Of a stretch of 64,000 nucleotides of DNA, positions 8,573-17,201 are shown piece after piece. The position numbers and the translations under genes were made by a program. Numbering within the stretch: the stretch's first letter is position 1; each line of letters opens with the position of its first letter. Source of the stretch: a bacterium HR21 (GTDB lineage Bacteria > Bacteroidota > Ignavibacteria > Kapaibacteriales > HRBIN21); NCBI GenBank assembly GCA_002898295.1, contig BEHX01000007.1:1-64000 (forward strand), written 5' to 3'. The notes under the pieces were generated by a model. That model saw only the letters and a list, made by a program, of their open reading frames with translations. It was not told the origin of the DNA and did not search any database.

Positions 8573-9703
8573 ATGGGAGTGGTGGTGCGTCCTCTCTGTG
8601 CAGCGGATGCACGACAGCGGCGTGCCTTTATTCGGCTCCAGTGGCGCTTCTATCGGCATGATCCGCTCTGGGTCCCACCGGTGCGGTCAGAAGTCGACAA
8701 GCTGCTCAATCCGCGCCGGAACCCCTTCTTCGAACATGCCCGCCTTGAGCTCTTCATCGCCGAGCAAGATGGGGAGCCAGTTGGGCGAATCGCTGCTATC
8801 GTCAACCGGCTCCATAACGAAACGCATCACGACACGGTTGGCTTCTTCGGCTTTTTCGAGTCCGTGCCAGAGCACGGGGTAGCTGCAGCACTGGTGGATG
8901 CCGCCGCCGACTGGCTGCGCCGCCAGGGATGTACCGCCATGCGGGGTCCGGTCAATCCTTCGATGAATGACGAGTGCGGACTCCTGGTAGAAGATTTCAC
9001 CCGTCCGCCAGTTGTCATGATGCCGTACAATCCGCCGTACTATGCTGAACTGCTGGAGTCCTGCGGGTTCCAGAAAGCGAAGGATCTCTTGGCATACTGG
9101 CTCACGGAGAGCTTCCTCACCGAAAAGCTCCAGCGCGGGCAGGAATTGGTGCGGCGCCGCCTTGGACTTCAGGTCCGGGGGATGGACTTCCGTAACCGGC
9201 GACTTTTCCAGGAGGACATCGAGCGCATCAAGTCCATCTACAACCGTGCGTGGGAGCCGAACTGGGGCTTTGTCCGCCTGACCGATGCCGAGATGGACTA
9301 CCTGGTTGCAGGACTCAAGCAAGTTGCCGACCCCGATTTGGCTGTTTTTGCCTTTCGCAATGGGGAGGCAATCGGCTTTGCACTGGCTCTGCCCGACATC
9401 AACCAGGTGTTGCGCTATAACCGCTCAGGCAGCCTCCTGGGCGCACTCTGGCACTTCGCGACGAAGCGGAAACGGGTCGATACTATGCGGATCCTCATCC
9501 TCGGCGTCCTGCCTGAGTACCAGCGGCAGGGCGTGGACGCGGTGCTCTACTACGAGCTGGGCACTCGTGGGCTGCAGAAAGGGATCCGCTACGCCGAAGC
9601 CAGCTGGGTTCTGGAGGACAATTGGGTAATGCGGAATCCGCTGGAGAAGTTGCTCAATGCCCAGCTCTACAAGCGCTACCGTATCTACGAAATGCCGCTC
9701 TGA
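8573..9703 (+). CDS. GNAT-superfamily N-acetyltransferase-like protein (YghO type)
   Basis: 376 residues, predicted soluble. The N-terminal part has RAFIRLQWRFYRHDPLWVPP and GRIAAIVNRLHNE, with FFGFFESVPEHGVAAALVDA and RGPVNPSMNDECGLL, a pattern of uncharacterised large GNAT proteins. A second GNAT-like half follows (EAIGFALALPDINQVL, LILGVLPEYQRQGVDAVLYYELG), giving a putative acetyl-CoA loop at QRQGVD. The acceptor substrate is unknown. The last 19 bases overlap the 3' end of the convergent guanine deaminase gene. Confidence 0.8.
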   Translation: MGVVVRPLCAADARQRRAFIRLQWRFYRHDPLWVPPVRSEVDKLLNPRRNPFFEHARLELFIAEQDGEPVGRIAAIVNRLHNETHHDTVGFFGFFESVPEHGVAAALVDAAADWLRRQGCTAMRGPVNPSMNDECGLLVEDFTRPPVVMMPYNPPYYAELLESCGFQKAKDLLAYWLTESFLTEKLQRGQELVRRRLGLQVRGMDFRNRRLFQEDIERIKSIYNRAWEPNWGFVRLTDAEMDYLVAGLKQVADPDLAVFAFRNGEAIGFALALPDINQVLRYNRSGSLLGALWHFATKRKRVDTMRILILGVLPEYQRQGVDAVLYYELGTRGLQKGIRYAEASWVLEDNWVMRNPLEKLLNAQLYKRYRIYEMPL

Positions 9704-11022
9704 GGGGGAGGATTCTGCCGGAAGAGTTCCCGTCCCCGGACGAAAACAGCACGGACTGCCGCAGGGGTTGCCGTGTAGAGGAGCCGTGCCAGAACGTGTG
9801 AGGGCTCCGACCAGAGTGGCTGCGCTGGTTCCAGAGCTGTGATGTCCAGCACGATGAAATCGGCGTCTTTTCCTTCCTCAAGGCTGCCGATTGTGTGCTC
9901 CAGCCCAAGGGCCTGAGCGCCGCCGAGCGTTGCCAGCCAGAGCGCTTCCTCGGGGGAAAGCTCTGTAGGCGCCTCTTCGGGGGACAAGAAGGCACGGAGT
10001 TTTGCCATCTCGCATGCCCAGCGGGCTTCCTCCAGCAGGAAGAGAGAGGTACCTGCGCCAATGTCGGTCCCCAGCCCAATTCGAAAGCCCTCGTGCAGGT
10101 ACTGTCGCAGGGGCATAATGCCGCTGCGCAGGAAGACGTTGGAGCGAGGGCAGTGCACGAGAGCGCAGTTGGCTCTGCGGAGGCGCTCCCGCTCGGAGGA
10201 GGAGAGGTAGATGGCGTGGGCAAACAGGGTCTGGGGGCGCAGCATTCCGGCGGCTTCGTAGACAGCGGTGTAGTCTGCTGCCTCGGGGAAGAGCTGAGCA
10301 ATCCAGCGGAGTTCGCCCGGACTCTCCGCCAGGTGTGTCTGCAGGAGAAGCCCGTGCCGCGTTGCTACCTCGGCGCAGAGCCTCAGGAGCTCCCGGGAAC
10401 AACTGCCGGCAAAGCGTGGGGCGATCGCGTAGGAGAGCCGCCCACCGTCGTAACCATGCCACTCATCGAGGAGCGCCTCCACCGCTTTCAAGGCTTCCTC
10501 GGGGGACGTCCGCAGCGCGTCTGGGACGTGACAGTCCATCAGCGTCTGTCCCATCAGAACACGCAACCCAAGGCGCGCAGCAACCCGGAACGCACGCCGG
10601 GTTGCCTCGGCATACGGAGGACCGAAGACGACAAGCGTCGTCGTTCCACAGCGGAGGGCTGCGCGGAAGAAGAGCTCCGCCTGCTGTTCAGCAAAGTCCG
10701 GGTCAGCGAAGCGGGCTTCGAGGGGAAAGATCAGGTGCTCAAGCCACGAGAGGAGCTCCCCTCGATCAAGAGCGAGTCCCTGGTACTGGGGCAAGTGTGT
10801 GTGGAGGTCTACAAACCCGGGAAGTATGAGGCTGGTCGGACCGAAATCCTGACAAGGGACTGCAGGGTACTGCCGCTGCAGCTCCTCTGCTGTCCCGACG
10901 GCACGGATGCGCCCACGGGCATCGATGAGAAACCCACCCTTGGGGAGAGCCTGAATGCGGCGTCCTGGTACCGGCGAGAAGAGAAGCCCTGCGGTGACAA
11001 GCCGCACCCCGGGCTGCTCCAT
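9685..11022 (-). CDS. guaD: Guanine deaminase (amidohydrolase family)
   Basis: 445 residues. It would hydrolyse guanine to xanthine and ammonia. Metal-binding signatures of the family are present: GFVDLHTHLPQYQ (His74, His76), LLQTHLAESPGE, FAHAIYLS, HCPRSNVFLRSG and GLGTDIGAGTS with the metal/catalytic Asp. The string LSWLEHLIFPLEARFAD is typical of GuaD rather than of other amidohydrolases, where the equivalent is LPWLEKYTFP. It is the last gene of a five-gene minus-strand operon, 10 bases after its neighbour. Another purine or pterin deaminase of the same family cannot be excluded. Confidence 0.85.
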   Translation of the reverse strand: MEQPGVRLVTAGLLFSPVPGRRIQALPKGGFLIDARGRIRAVGTAEELQRQYPAVPCQDFGPTSLILPGFVDLHTHLPQYQGLALDRGELLSWLEHLIFPLEARFADPDFAEQQAELFFRAALRCGTTTLVVFGPPYAEATRRAFRVAARLGLRVLMGQTLMDCHVPDALRTSPEEALKAVEALLDEWHGYDGGRLSYAIAPRFAGSCSRELLRLCAEVATRHGLLLQTHLAESPGELRWIAQLFPEAADYTAVYEAAGMLRPQTLFAHAIYLSSSERERLRRANCALVHCPRSNVFLRSGIMPLRQYLHEGFRIGLGTDIGAGTSLFLLEEARWACEMAKLRAFLSPEEAPTELSPEEALWLATLGGAQALGLEHTIGSLEEGKDADFIVLDITALEPAQPLWSEPSHVLARLLYTATPAAVRAVFVRGRELFRQNPPPQSGIS

Positions 11023-11031
11023 GGCAGCGTT

Positions 11032-11532
11032 TCAGAAGTTGTCGGAGTCGGTGAGCTCCTTTTCCAGTTCATCAGCAACACTGCTGACGTGGTGGATAGC
11101 CGAGCCGAGCGTCTGCCCCTCGGTATCCGCGCTGAGGTGGACACGGAAAACCACGAAGGTAGAGGAACCGGCTTTCTCAACTGACCAGGCACCGAACTTC
11201 AGCCGGGAGTTGCGTTCGAGAAGCTCCCGGGCAAGATGTGCCGGGAGCTCATCTTCAAAGCGTGCGGCGATGCTCCACACCTCGCGGATTTCAATCCCCT
11301 GGTAGAACTCCGTCGAGGAGTTGATGAAGACCTGCTGGGTCCGCTCGTCATCAGTGAATCGAATAGTGACGCGGTAGTCTCCGTCCTCATCCACCAGGTA
11401 CGAGAACCCCGCTGCTTTGAGCTGCTGGGCAACGCGCGGGTCAGCGTGCGCGGTCGAGCTTCTCCCCACTTGGGCAAAGCTTGGGGCGAACCCGAGACAG
11501 AAGAGCAACCAGAGCAGGGCTCGGGATGTCAT
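11032..11532 (-). CDS. Small secreted protein of unknown function, possibly YbjN-like
   Basis: 166 residues from an ATG at 11532 with a strong GGAGG site 5 bases upstream; the longer frame upstream lacks these features. A signal peptide is clear (RALLWLLFCLGFAPSFAQ). The mature part is about 145 residues with alternating strands and helices, including LKAAGFSYLVDEDGDYRVTI and RNSRLKFGAWSVEKAGSSTF, and resembles the YbjN / secretion-chaperone-like fold. That resemblance is weak. It sits between the Cyc2-like gene and guanine deaminase and may be a periplasmic partner of the former. Confidence 0.7.
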   Translation of the reverse strand: MTSRALLWLLFCLGFAPSFAQVGRSSTAHADPRVAQQLKAAGFSYLVDEDGDYRVTIRFTDDERTQQVFINSSTEFYQGIEIREVWSIAARFEDELPAHLARELLERNSRLKFGAWSVEKAGSSTFVVFRVHLSADTEGQTLGSAIHHVSSVADELEKELTDSDNF

Positions 11533-11582: not shown

Positions 11583-12683
11583 TCAATATGCAAGGTCTAC
11601 CCCAAGAGTCAGCCGGGTCAGAGGTTGGAGGAAGTGCCGTTCCAGCTCCAGTAGCAGTCGGACGTTCCGGTAGGGGTAATAGCTGTAGTAGAGTGCCAGG
11701 GATTGGTGGCGCAGTGGGCGGTAGAAGGATCCCGGAGGTGCAGCGATGAGGTTTGCCAACATGGCGATGGCATGGGGGAAGTCCGTATAGTCCAGCCCAA
11801 GGAAGCCACCGTGGAAGGTATCGGTACGGCTATTGTCGTAGCCGGAGAAGAGCTGGAGGAAGAGCTCTGCATTGTCGAGCAGCATCCAGCGCCAGTCGAA
11901 CCCGAGCCGATAGCCGCGGATGAGCCGACCGGCGGTGTCGGGCATTTCCCCGTAGAGAGCAAAGAGTCCGGCGTTGAAGGGGAGGGAGAGATGTCCGAAG
12001 AAGACTTTTCGGTTGTCTGCATCTGCGTCACCGCTGACGTATTCCCCAATGCCGTTCCCATTGACCACTCCGAGGGAGATGTCCCAGGGCAGGTTCAGGA
12101 TGAGACCGCGCTGGTATGTCAGTGGGAAGCGCCCGATGGTGTAAATCTGGTAATCGCTTCGGGTCAGACGCAGCTCTCGCGGGAACATCAGGTCACAGAT
12201 CTGGAACTGCCCCAGCTGGACACCGAAGCTGTTCCAGGGATGGAGGTTGACCCAGGCGTCCTCGAAGAAAGGAGCTTCGCCCTGTTCGAAGATGATGTAG
12301 GCGTAGAAGTTTGCAACCGGACCGAGAGCACCACCGGTCAGGAGCTTGACTGCCCACGGGGCTTTGAAATCCTGCTTCCACCGGGTTCCTTCGGCACGGA
12401 CCTCCGTCCATTGCTGGAAGCGCAGCGCCAGCGGGACACGCTCAAACAGATTGAGCGCCTCATCGCCCGTATGGGGAACATACGCTTTCTCCTGCATCCC
12501 CTCGAAGATGTAGCCGTGGGCGGAGAACTGCTCCCCGAAGGCGTTCAGCTTCGGATAGGCGGCGTGGCATGTTGCACACGAAAGCCCGTATTGCCGAGCA
12601 AAGGCAGGAATTGCCGGTGCCGACGATGGCAGCGCGCACAGGAGAAGGACAACACTGCTCTGTCGCCAGAGGGAGGAGAGCAT
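11583..12683 (-). CDS. Outer-membrane cytochrome-porin fusion, Cyc2-like
   Basis: 366 residues: a signal peptide (1 to about 24), then PAFARQYGLSCATCH at 26-40 with one c-type heme site (CATCH, 36-40), followed by AAYPKLNAFGEQFSAHGYIF and a long region of alternating amphipathic strands ending in LGVDLAY, as expected for a beta-barrel. This arrangement and the motif around the heme (AFARQ, C..CH, P.LN.FG, GY) are those of the Cyc2 family, in which a single-heme plug is fused to a porin and can take electrons from Fe(II) outside the cell. The protein is shorter than typical Cyc2 (about 400-480 residues), and porins with this N-terminal motif also exist with no known iron role. It lies 21 bases after the PD40-OmpA gene in the same operon. 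Confidence 0.75.
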   Translation of the reverse strand: MLSSLWRQSSVVLLLCALPSSAPAIPAFARQYGLSCATCHAAYPKLNAFGEQFSAHGYIFEGMQEKAYVPHTGDEALNLFERVPLALRFQQWTEVRAEGTRWKQDFKAPWAVKLLTGGALGPVANFYAYIIFEQGEAPFFEDAWVNLHPWNSFGVQLGQFQICDLMFPRELRLTRSDYQIYTIGRFPLTYQRGLILNLPWDISLGVVNGNGIGEYVSGDADADNRKVFFGHLSLPFNAGLFALYGEMPDTAGRLIRGYRLGFDWRWMLLDNAELFLQLFSGYDNSRTDTFHGGFLGLDYTDFPHAIAMLANLIAAPPGSFYRPLRHQSLALYYSYYPYRNVRLLLELERHFLQPLTRLTLGVDLAY

Positions 12684-12704: not shown

Positions 12705-14186
12705 TTACTGAATGACGATCACCTCGACGCGCCGGTTCTGCGCGCGTGCCTCTTCGGTTGTGCCCTGGACGAGCGGGCGGCGCCGTCCCCAGCCTTTCGT
12801 CTCGATGCGATGGGGGTCTATGCCGTTTTTGACTAGGTATTCCTTGACCGCGTCGGCTCGGCGTTGCGAGAGGCGGTCGTTGTAGGCGTCAGTGCCGACA
12901 TCATCCGTGTGCCCTTCAACGGAGATGCGTACAGAGGGATAGGCTTTGAGGAACTCCACCAGGCGGTCTAGGTCGGGGAGCGACTCCTCCTTGAGCTCGG
13001 CTTTGTCGAAGTCGAAGAAGACCAAAAGCCGCGTGCGACCACGTTCGACCGGGGTGAGCGCGATGTCCTTCGTGACGGTGCTACTGCCCGCATTGCGGGG
13101 GACTTCGAAGCGCTCGCTGTAGAAGAGGTAGCCTTCCCGAGAGGCGGTAATGGAGTACGTTCGTCCTGCAGGGAGAGCAACGTAGTACTCCCCGGTTTCC
13201 TCGTCGCTATAGAGCTCGGCGAGCTTGCGGCGGGTGCGTAGATCGGTGATCGTGATGGTTGCCCCGAGGGGATCGTTGGTATAGGCATCCCGGACGGTTC
13301 CCTGAACCATGAGGATCGGCTCCGGTGGGTTGGGATTCGGCACGACGAGGAAGACATCCAGGTCTCCTGCGGGGGTTGTCCGGCTCAGCAGGGCTGCATT
13401 CTGGTCGGGCAGAGGGAGGTAGTAAAACTCGTCGGCGGGGGTATTGACAGGAGAGGGGAGCTTCTCCGGGCGCCCGAAGGAGCCATCGGGACCCATACGG
13501 CTGACGAAGATATCGAAAGTTCCGTCGCGATTTGAGGCAAAGTAGAGTGTGCGCCCATCGGCTGCTAGGACAGGTGCCATCTCATCGGCAGCGGAGTTCA
13601 GGGCACGGAGCGGGGTGGGAGCAGACCACCGGCTACCCTCACGATGGGAAATCCACAGGTCTGTCCCTCCAGCACTCCCAGGGCGATCGGAGGCGAAGAT
13701 GAGCACGGTCCCATCGGCAGAGATACAGGGCTGGGAGTCCCAGTACGGGGAGTTGATAACCTCCCCGAGGTTTTCTACTTGACGCCACCGTTTGCCTGAC
13801 CGGTGAGCACGGTAGATATCTGTGCGCCCGCTGCCGCCGAGTTCATGCTGGAAAGCAGCGAAGAGCAGGACATTCCCGTCCGCCGTCGAGCTGGCGGCGC
13901 CAACGTGGGTTGCATCGGCGATAGTCCCGCGGATCCGCTCCGGGAAGCCCCACTGAGTGCCTTCCCGGGGAACTCGGTAGAGCCGCTGCCGTCCCCCATC
14001 TCGGCTGGAAGTCAGGAAGACTTCCCGCCCTCCACGGGCAATACCGGTCACGAAATCGTCACCGGAGGAGTTCAGTTCCTCCACCGGGGTGATCTGGATG
14101 GCTGATCCGGTCGGACGTGCCTGGATTTGCGCCCAGGTAAGCACTGTCGCCCCACAGAGGAGAGGTACGACGAGGGAACGCCACAT
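12705..14186 (-). CDS. PD40 propeller / carboxypeptidase-regulatory / OmpA protein (PorE-like)
   Basis: 493 residues with a signal peptide (MWRSLVVPLLCGATVLTWAQ). Residues about 30-290 hold PD40-type repeats (GTVLIFASDRPGSAGGTDL, GRTLYFASNRDGTFDIFVS). About 294-375 is a carboxypeptidase-regulatory-like domain (VQGTVRDAYTNDPLGATITI). About 385-493 is an OmpA C-terminal domain that binds peptidoglycan (VFFDFDKAEL, SVEGHTDDVGTDAYNDRLSQRRA, AQNRRVEVIV). The T9SS component PorE has the same order but with an N-terminal TPR block, which is absent here. It follows an outer-membrane barrel gene by 19 bases. It probably links the outer membrane to the wall; a direct role in T9SS is inference. Confidence 0.85.
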   Translation of the reverse strand: MWRSLVVPLLCGATVLTWAQIQARPTGSAIQITPVEELNSSGDDFVTGIARGGREVFLTSSRDGGRQRLYRVPREGTQWGFPERIRGTIADATHVGAASSTADGNVLLFAAFQHELGGSGRTDIYRAHRSGKRWRQVENLGEVINSPYWDSQPCISADGTVLIFASDRPGSAGGTDLWISHREGSRWSAPTPLRALNSAADEMAPVLAADGRTLYFASNRDGTFDIFVSRMGPDGSFGRPEKLPSPVNTPADEFYYLPLPDQNAALLSRTTPAGDLDVFLVVPNPNPPEPILMVQGTVRDAYTNDPLGATITITDLRTRRKLAELYSDEETGEYYVALPAGRTYSITASREGYLFYSERFEVPRNAGSSTVTKDIALTPVERGRTRLLVFFDFDKAELKEESLPDLDRLVEFLKAYPSVRISVEGHTDDVGTDAYNDRLSQRRADAVKEYLVKNGIDPHRIETKGWGRRRPLVQGTTEEARAQNRRVEVIVIQ

Positions 14187-14205: not shown

Positions 14206-15066
14206 TTACAGACCGAACCACAGTCCCACCAGCAGTCGGAGGGAATGCTGCGAGGGGGATTTCGAAGTGTAGTTGGCTGTGCCCTCCGAGGTTGGTTTCC
14301 ACTGATCGACGGTGGTAACGTCGTCGCGGAAGGTAGAGAGGAGCTGAAACTGCAGTTGCGGTACGAGCCAGAGTGAGCGTCCAAGGGGGACTTTGTACCC
14401 TATGCCGAGTTCGGCACCGATGCGTGTGGTCTTCATCGGAGGAGTATTGAATTCTGTGGTGATCTGCAGCGTGCGGTAGAGCTGCCCATCGTCCGGGTTG
14501 ATGAAGCCGCACTGCTCAGACTGTGACGTGTACGTAGCAGTTTGCTCATTTTTCTGCAAGAAGAGAGCCGTCACTCCGGCGGTGAGCCAGAGCTGGGGGG
14601 TCAGCTCGTAGCGTAGCCCAGCGCCAGCTGTGAGGGAGGACATCGTGAAGGACCATTCGATGGAGACAGGGGTAGTTCCGAGATATGCGCCGGTCAGGGC
14701 GTCGTGGCAGTCTGCCTCTGCTGTCCCAGAGTGTCCGAAGGTTTTCACATCGTAGCCGACTCGGAGCTGCAGTCCGAGCCGCGGCGTAAGCCCAAGATCA
14801 GCGGCGATGGAGGCGAAAGGTGAAAAGCCGGTGCCACTCGAAAATTGTTGGGGCGGGGTGTTCGTGGGGGTAAAGGGGGAGTACTGGAGCGTGGCTGAGG
14901 CGGTGTTCCAGTTGAGCCCACCTTCAATGCCGAGCATCAGGGGAAGTCCGCGTTCTGGAGCGCCGACCTCGAAGATTGGGGCACCGCGCGGGCGCAGAAC
15001 ATCTTCCTGGGCAAGTGCGCTAGAGAGCATCACGGCGAGACCCACGCACACGGCATCGTAACGCAT
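14206..15066 (-). CDS. Outer-membrane beta-barrel protein
   Basis: 286 residues, first gene of the minus-strand operon. The signal peptide is short (VGLAVMLSSALAQ). The rest shows barrel-like alternation: GIEGGLNWNTASATLQYSPF, LGLQLRVGYDVKTFG, YELTPQLWLTAGVTALFLQ, IGAELGIGYKVPLGRSLWL, with a C-terminal aromatic strand ending LWFGL. This resembles the short barrels (PorT/OmpW size class) found next to PD40-OmpA genes in the FCB group. The exact family is not recognised. The start is supported by a TAAATTTG promoter element 35 bases upstream. Confidence 0.75.
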   Translation of the reverse strand: MRYDAVCVGLAVMLSSALAQEDVLRPRGAPIFEVGAPERGLPLMLGIEGGLNWNTASATLQYSPFTPTNTPPQQFSSGTGFSPFASIAADLGLTPRLGLQLRVGYDVKTFGHSGTAEADCHDALTGAYLGTTPVSIEWSFTMSSLTAGAGLRYELTPQLWLTAGVTALFLQKNEQTATYTSQSEQCGFINPDDGQLYRTLQITTEFNTPPMKTTRIGAELGIGYKVPLGRSLWLVPQLQFQLLSTFRDDVTTVDQWKPTSEGTANYTSKSPSQHSLRLLVGLWFGL

Positions 15067-15128: not shown

Positions 15129-17201
15129 ATGCATCCCGTAATTTTGGCGGGCTATTCGAGCAGCAGTGCGATGCGGTATACCTGGCTTCTGGTGCTCCTC
15201 GGTGTTGCTGTGGAAGCGCAACCGGGGGCAGTCCAGACCTGGCGGGTGTTCTTCCGCGACAAAGGTCCAGAGCCTTTCCGACCGGGAAGCCGATTGTACG
15301 AGCAGACCCTGGCGCTCCATTCTCCGCGGGCGCTTGCCCGGCGGGCGAAGGTCCGTCCGCCGGAGGCGCTGCTGACGTTCGCTGATGCCCCGGTCTACCA
15401 GCCGTATCTGGATAGCCTTCGCCGGTGGGGTGAGCTGCGGCTCGTCGTGCGCTGGCGCAATTACGCAGTGCTGCAGATGGATTCCCTGGCGGCAGAAGCT
15501 GTGCGGCAGCTGCCTTTCGTGGCAGCAGTCCAACCCACCGGGCAGGTCCCGCTTCCGGTTGCGCTGCCGCAAGCCTCAGGAGGTATTGCCCAGGGGCTAG
15601 GCTGGCAGGAACATCCGTGCGGACCCTTTGATTACGGGGCGTCGCGGTGGCAGCTGGAGATGCTCAAGATTCCCGCAGTGCACCGAATCGGGGTGACAGG
15701 CGAAGGAGTCCTCCTCGGCTTGCTCGACACGGGCTTCCGCTGGCGTCAGCAGCCCGGGTTTGCGCATCTGCAAGTCCTGGCAGAGTGGGATTTCCTCGGC
15801 AATGATTCTGTCACGGCCAACCAGCCGGGCGATGACCCATTGCAGGACCTCCACGGAACAGCGGTGCTCTCCGTGCTCGGTGCCGTCCTTCCGGGCACGC
15901 TCATCGGTGCTGCTCCAATGGCGACGTATATTCTGGGCAAAACCGAAGAGCTGCCGGCAGAGCGCCACATTGAGGAAGATGCCTATGCGGCAGCGCTCGA
16001 GTGGATGGAAGCACTCGGCGTTGACGTGGTTTCCTCTTCCCTGGGGTACCGGGATTTCGATAGCACGGAGGTGTCCTACACTGCGGCGCAGCTCGATGGT
16101 CGGACGACGATTGTCGCGCAGGCAGTCGAGGAAGCGGCGCGGCGCGGGGTGCTGTGCGTGACGGCAATGGGCAATGACGGCGCACGCGGGCTCAATTCGC
16201 CAGCCGATGCTGATAGTGTCATCGCGGTGGCGGCGGTGGACAGCGCTGGTCAGCGGGTGCATTTCAGCTCGGTGGGCAGGCGGCAGCATGGCATCTTACG
16301 TCCCAGCCTTGCTGCTCCTGGGATTGGCGTCCTGGGGCTCCTCCCGGGACAGGATCAGCCTCGCCCGCTGGCGGGGACGTCAATGGCGACGCCACTGGTT
16401 GCCGGGGCAGTGGCACTCTTGCTGGCAGCGCGTCCGGAGCTGCCCCCGTGGCGTATTCGCCAGGCTCTGCTGGAGACGGCCTCCAATGCGGAGCATCCCG
16501 ATACTCTCCTAGGGTACGGTGTGCCCAACCTTGTACGGGCGCTTCTCCGGCTCGGGGGGGCAGTTGGTCCGCCGGCGCTGGTGGAGTCGGCGCAGTCTCT
16601 CCGGGCAGTGGCTTTCGCCTTTGTGCCCTTCCCGCTCTTTGGGGCGTGGCTCCAGTGGGGGGATCTCCCACGGGAGGAGGCGATCCGGGGCACAATCCCG
16701 CTGCGGTCTCTTGGGACAGACCCCCTAACTCTCTTCGGTGAGCTTCCGCGAGAGCTCCTCAGAACAGATACGGTCTGGGCGCGAGTGCGGTTGGTAGGGA
16801 GCGCCGGAGAAGAACTCCTCGGACGCTGGTACCTCCTTCGATTGCCGCCGTCTGTCCCATGCGGGATGGTCATCCCGCCGGAGGTGCTCGCACTTCCTGC
16901 CGCAGAGCAGGAGGTGCTGCGGATTAGCCCGCAGCCTGTCCCGCTCGGAGAAGTGTGCACGGTGTCCCTGCCGGGGCTCTCGCCTGGAGGGCGGCTGCCG
17001 CTCCGCGCGGTGCAGCTCTGGGATGCAGTCGGACGCCACGTTCGGAGATACACGCTGGCGGAGTCTACCCAGCCGTGGAGCGGGACACGCTGGACGCTGC
17101 GTCTGCCGACGGCAGGACTTGCAGCGGGGGTGTACTGGCTCGAGGCGCTTTACGGGAGCAACGGGGCTGAGCGGCTCTTTGCTCCAATAGTGCTCCGATG
17201 A
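15129..17201 (+). CDS. Secreted subtilisin-like serine protease (S8) with T9SS-like C-terminus
   Basis: 690 residues. The catalytic triad is visible: Asp200 in GLLDTGF, His242 in DLHGTAV, and Ser418 in GTSMATPLVAG. GNDGARGLNSPADADSVIAVAAV is typical of S8 peptidases. Residues about 30-150 form a propeptide-like region. The last 90 residues (ISPQPVPLGE, VQLWDAVGRHV, TAGLAAGVYWLEA) resemble a T9SS type A sorting domain. The ATG at 15129 has a GAGAGG site 8 bases upstream; a start at 15171 (MRYTWLLVLLGVAVEAQ) would give a more usual signal peptide. It is likely exported to degrade external protein, matching the amino-acid catabolism genes nearby. Confidence 0.9.
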   Translation: MHPVILAGYSSSSAMRYTWLLVLLGVAVEAQPGAVQTWRVFFRDKGPEPFRPGSRLYEQTLALHSPRALARRAKVRPPEALLTFADAPVYQPYLDSLRRWGELRLVVRWRNYAVLQMDSLAAEAVRQLPFVAAVQPTGQVPLPVALPQASGGIAQGLGWQEHPCGPFDYGASRWQLEMLKIPAVHRIGVTGEGVLLGLLDTGFRWRQQPGFAHLQVLAEWDFLGNDSVTANQPGDDPLQDLHGTAVLSVLGAVLPGTLIGAAPMATYILGKTEELPAERHIEEDAYAAALEWMEALGVDVVSSSLGYRDFDSTEVSYTAAQLDGRTTIVAQAVEEAARRGVLCVTAMGNDGARGLNSPADADSVIAVAAVDSAGQRVHFSSVGRRQHGILRPSLAAPGIGVLGLLPGQDQPRPLAGTSMATPLVAGAVALLLAARPELPPWRIRQALLETASNAEHPDTLLGYGVPNLVRALLRLGGAVGPPALVESAQSLRAVAFAFVPFPLFGAWLQWGDLPREEAIRGTIPLRSLGTDPLTLFGELPRELLRTDTVWARVRLVGSAGEELLGRWYLLRLPPSVPCGMVIPPEVLALPAAEQEVLRISPQPVPLGEVCTVSLPGLSPGGRLPLRAVQLWDAVGRHVRRYTLAESTQPWSGTRWTLRLPTAGLAAGVYWLEALYGSNGAERLFAPIVLR

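Follow-up and report, generated by a model that had tools for sequence, protein, structure and literature searches.

A Cyc2-like cytochrome-porin on a branch of its own, with a pentaheme-paired sister clade, in a hot-spring lineage of the Ignavibacteria

The analysed stretch of DNA, 64,000 nucleotides long and called the window here, encodes a protein that, judged by its sequence, joins a single-heme cytochrome domain to a porin. The protein is Cyc2-like, not a proven Cyc2, and falls on a separate branch. Our favoured reading, which we hold to be somewhat better than evenly supported, is that it is an orphaned outer-membrane protein through which electrons enter or leave the cell by way of one heme, working like Cyc2. 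The gene and the parts of its product are as follows.

11583..12683, minus strand: coding sequence of the Cyc2-like cytochrome-porin (heme-porin), 366 aa, ATG start, stop codon included in the coordinates
12612..12683, minus strand: signal peptide, aa 1-24, by inspection, cleavage between ...SAPA and IPAF
12588..12614, minus strand: AIPAFARQY, aa 24-32, corresponding to the motif AXPXFAR[Q/K][T/Y] (sequence compared with PMC8406198)
12564..12578, minus strand: CATCH heme c attachment site, aa 36-40, by sequence, Cys and His invariant in the alignment
12546..12554, minus strand: PKL, aa 44-46, corresponding to the PXL motif four residues past CXXCH (sequence compared with PMC8406198)
11586..12440, minus strand: predicted porin-like barrel, about aa 82-366, C-terminus ...GVDLAY, from a low-confidence model

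The reading frame runs from 12683 down to 11583 on the minus strand, and its length of 366 aa presumes the assigned start codon. The signal peptide is evident by eye (MLSSLWRQSSVVLLLCALPSSAPA, cut before IPAF), CXXCH occurs exactly once (CATCH, 12578..12564), and downstream of it come AAYPKL, PKLNAFG and then GY. The signal peptide, the single CATCH and the P.LN.FG / GY continuation on which the original prediction was built are all present. The codon pattern of this CATCH has its sole perfect match in the 1.83-Mb genome in this gene. No Pfam or NCBIfam model matched the protein, and PDB sequence searches returned no relative.

The published signature of Cyc2 consists of AXPXFAR[Q/K][T/Y], CXXCH, PXL four residues downstream and a porin, and FeGenie sets a length of at least 365 residues (PMC8406198). 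All the sequence motifs are found exactly in the heme-porin (AIPAFARQY-GLS-CATCH-AAYPKL), which at 366 aa is longer than the length threshold by a single residue. With the Cyc2 proteins of Mariprofundus PV-1, Acidithiobacillus and Chlorobium (PMC8406198) it shares a signal peptide as judged by eye, these motifs around a lone CXXCH, and a cytochrome and predicted porin in one chain ending in an aromatic residue. It differs from them in a diverged barrel sequence, a tree branch of its own, a length barely above the cut-off and a locus with no cyc1, HiPIP or oxidase neighbours.

We compared it with four Cyc2 references, L025, L097 (Methylocystis plasmid), L098 (Caballeronia plasmid) and L108 (family f37, probably Chlorobiaceae), the last of which we presume to be a Chlorobium-type Cyc2. 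The surroundings of L098 include HiPIP and cytochromes of the c type, while L108 adjoins a small monoheme cytochrome. Profile-profile comparisons with these references, at 99% probability, gave E 8.5e-18 for a match spanning the heme domain plus the next ~100 residues; a profile built from the genus only gave E 1.8e-15, with the match confined to the heme domain. In a tree of 62 sequences, 51 of which carry the strict AXPXFAR[Q/K][T/Y] motif, the window's genus was monophyletic (100/100) and grouped with a clade of ~390-aa heme-porins paired with a pentaheme cytochrome, and a 99/99 branch separated both from the four references and from a third group, 'B'. Long branches were flagged, that of the genus measuring 2.24, and the tree was built without cluster 3 (Leptospirillum Cyt572), so it argues against membership of Cyc2 without closing the matter. 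Of the Cyc2 identity first proposed, the motifs and the homology are supported; in this tree the protein does not group with the Cyc2 references.

The strongest competing explanation, which we consider unlikely, is a true Cyc2-type Fe(II) oxidase: dissolved Fe2+ would enter the barrel and reduce the heme, and the electrons would pass to oxygen. The motifs and the length agree with it, the genome has genes for oxidases and alternative complex III, and iron oxidation genes, in that study dominantly Cyc2, were attributed to Ignavibacteriales in a FeGenie survey (PMC8478452). Against it, besides the position outside the four references, the segment 'NNNPTVQD.W.T..WG.PYASS' common to L025, L097 and L098 is absent from the heme-porin, the gene is not flanked by cyc1, a HiPIP or a small monoheme cytochrome, unlike in L097, L098 and L108, and function in distant Cyc2 clusters has been called uncertain (PMC8406198). 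Judging from sequence, Fe(II) is a possible substrate. An electron entry or exit protein working like Cyc2, as we prefer to read it, could draw on the same respiratory chain: the genome contains cytochrome c maturation genes, alternative complex III genes (by inspection) and three COX1 matches, and its CXXCH codon patterns are in excess (215 versus 106 for the reversed-pattern control). A respiratory sink for electrons exists.

The barrel itself is likely porin-like, on the evidence of sequence and low-confidence models. The C-terminal residue is aromatic (F or Y) in all 62 compared homologs, as is expected for an outer-membrane barrel. An AlphaFold model from a six-sequence alignment reached pLDDT 48 and pTM 0.42; it is helical at first and shows strands from residue ~112 onward. 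A second model from five sequences was poorer (pLDDT 39). With the former low-confidence model (pLDDT 48), nearly all of the 50 Foldseek matches listed were outer-membrane porins, 16-strand ones included; the best E was 4.0e-6, TM-scores to general porins were ~0.3 and OprP ranked 17th. One of 24 members of the heme-porin family matched the barrel family BBP2. The following beta-barrel of the original prediction is supported by the porin-like matches and the aromatic C-terminus; at pLDDT values of 48 and 39 and TM-scores of ~0.3, the closed barrel of 16 strands with the heme plug inside remains a prediction. The Cyc2 barrel has been modelled on OprO/OprP (PMC8406198). Profile-profile comparison with Porin_O_P members gave no significant match (13% probability, and 0.3% for the genus alone). 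The two heme Cys, the heme His and the residues P-F-A-R-Y are invariant in 24 aligned homologs. Among the compared homologs there is no invariant His or Met outside CXXCH to act as the second heme ligand, so a redox role of the heme is not certain.

The wider family offers the best clue to function. When 391 genomes of the class were searched with a profile, 83 of them by our count had full-length homologs (E < 1e-50), a few being fragments; weaker matches to longer heme-porins were numerous and lay mainly in the N-terminal part. A scan of viral contigs added no homologs. In the full-length clade, widespread in the class (loci L024, L060-L079 and L111-L125), the heme-porin gene lies directly downstream, on the same strand, of one for a ~445-aa multiheme cytochrome, mostly with a gap of 7-18 bp. 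Pairing was scored at 44 loci, of which 39 were paired, one (L071) was unpaired and four were at contig ends (39/40 scorable); L074 and L075, which carry an AYAR variant of the motif and lie beyond these 44, are also paired, and in the Gemmatimonadetes relative L020 the contig end was too close for scoring. This clade is sister to the window's genus in the tree and resembles the window protein over its full length (~30-36% identity), having the heme domain and the conserved charged residues of the barrel in common with it.

The partner cytochrome has four CXXCH and usually a CX3CH, replaced by a canonical CXXCH in L067, so that it probably binds five hemes. Among NCBIfam models it scores best with ExtKL, at 42-49 bits far under the 250-bit cut-off, and its profile matched the cytochrome c552 structure 5ZE8 (E 1.2e-8), in our reading the pentaheme c552 of Thermochromatium. 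Together with related pentaheme cytochromes, ExtKL forms one family, similar to that c552, and it is proposed to act in extracellular electron transport (PMC11976967); this family holds the sequence relatives of the partner. In Geobacter, ExtKL and the porin ExtI are encoded near each other (PMC5877670), a system that differs from the one described here in that ExtI is reported without a heme site and the window locus is without an ExtKL-type gene. Because the heme-porins of the sister clade almost always adjoin a five-heme cytochrome, the arrangement suggests an electron-carrying pair. We found no description of this pair in the open-access literature, which is weak evidence, subscription journals being largely outside the scope of the search.

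Some further heme-porins were seen in passing. L109 (G460) has two tandem group-B heme-porins followed by Rieske-like, cytochrome b-like and seven-CXXCH reading frames. Genomes of family f37 (L106 and L107 among them) often have one to five heme-porin matches; the two whose full sequence was inspected belong to the longer group-B type (AFARKYHTACSTCH) and differ from the Cyc2-like L108 of the same family. L108 also has a 428-aa reading frame with 16 CXXCH (L108:2449-3732), located ~1.2 kb downstream from its Cyc2-like gene.

At the locus of the window's genus the pentaheme cytochrome is absent upstream of the heme-porin, in the window and in its relatives, and a PD40-OmpA gene stands there instead. 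The closest match to the partner in the window's genus, and the only one found elsewhere in the genome, is a distant, lipoprotein-like pentaheme paralog at another locus (E 1.7e-22; L089:8630-10072, G000:C6), which carries five CXXCH and is matched in each of the genus's six genomes. The neighbours of the heme-porin are listed below.

14206..15066, minus strand: outer-membrane barrel protein, which throughout the order occurs in relatives as a pair with PD40-OmpA
12705..14186, minus strand: PD40-OmpA protein (PorE-like), upstream of the heme-porin with a 21-bp gap, kept in the order without the heme-porin
11032..11532, minus strand: secreted YbjN-domain protein, 50-bp gap (PF10722, 28.1 bits against a cut-off of 22)
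9685..11022, minus strand: amidohydrolase-like gene at the downstream end, by inspection, position conserved in the genus

The PD40-OmpA protein is called PorE-like only, because its best NCBIfam match, PorE, scores 220 bits against a cut-off of 600. The order barrel, PD40-OmpA, heme-porin, amidohydrolase is kept in the genus wherever the contigs extend far enough, and the YbjN gene occurs in three of six genomes. Outside the genus, all 18 examined relatives have the barrel/PD40-OmpA pair with no adjoining heme-porin and with unrelated, non-heme genes downstream, which makes the pair independent of the heme-porin. The co-directional barrel, PD40-OmpA and small secreted proteins described originally are all there, on the same strand; their interpretation as an envelope operon was rejected as a functional unit, given the 18/18 pairs without the heme-porin and the inconsistent YbjN gene, and the grouping is probably incidental. 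A subtilase-like protein is encoded on the plus strand at 15129-17201 of the window; judged by eye, its C-terminal end looks similar to a type IX sorting domain.

These neighbours bear on a second alternative, in which the protein would be a porin with a structural, sensory or peroxidatic heme, serving envelope physiology with the OmpA and barrel proteins and not respiration. Its place 21 bp behind PD40-OmpA, kept in the genus, speaks for this, and a heme without an invariant distal His or Met would be compatible with five-coordination. We regard it as improbable, however, since the OmpA-barrel pair is stable without the heme-porin in 18 of 18 relatives and the sister clade pairs the heme-porin with a multiheme electron carrier.

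The heme-porin gene was present in all six sampled genomes of the genus, whose named members are metagenome-assembled records labelled Bacteroidota or Candidatus Kapabacteria and whose sample codes we read as hot springs. Two copies are incomplete: that of G005 ends at a contig end, and the ortholog in G004 (L022:6841-7943) is interrupted by frame breaks that could be a pseudogene or an assembly error. Intact copies are 67-74% identical to the window protein, the heme site is invariant across the genus, and the gene is under purifying selection, dN/dS among the four intact copies being ~0.07-0.20, a rough figure with dS near saturation. That the gene is a relic of the pentaheme/heme-porin module, in decay and retained only through recent descent, could be argued from the broken G004 copy and the partner missing at the locus, but is very improbable in view of the low dN/dS, the invariant heme site and the chance that the G004 breaks are assembly errors.

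We infer that the orphaned electron entry or exit protein would operate as follows. A closed porin-like barrel in the outer membrane would carry one covalent heme c in its short N-terminal domain, placed at the periplasmic mouth as a plug. A small redox substrate would enter the lumen and exchange electrons with the heme, which would in turn pass them to, or receive them from, a c-type cytochrome of the periplasm with a link to the respiratory chain (alternative complex III and heme-copper oxidases); the direction of flow and the substrate belong to the same conjecture. In the window's genus the pentaheme partner is absent from the locus, and the heme-porin gene follows an envelope pair unrelated to it. 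A gene for a dedicated electron acceptor is lacking beside the heme-porin in the genus, and its function may have shifted, since the genus branch is long. The caution expressed at the outset that the protein might have another role was justified.

We tentatively propose, at rather less than even confidence, that the pentaheme cytochrome and the heme-porin together constitute a new minimal conduit of about six hemes and two genes, widespread in the class and with a barrel that itself bears heme, and that the window's genus has kept the heme-porin and re-wired it to another periplasmic cytochrome. One published neighbourhood screen requires at least 15 hemes (PMC11475568), so a six-heme pair would escape it.

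Cyc2-like genes in Ignavibacteriales or Ignavibacteriaceae have already been reported in surveys, one of which (PMC8478452) credits Ignavibacteriales with iron oxidation on the strength of Cyc2 matches, which serve as markers of that process in metagenomes. If the heme-porin branch is a different conduit, some of these iron-oxidation calls would be mistaken. The pair of genes, being conserved, is also a concrete candidate, open to testing, for electron transfer at the outer membrane of a group in which little is known of it.
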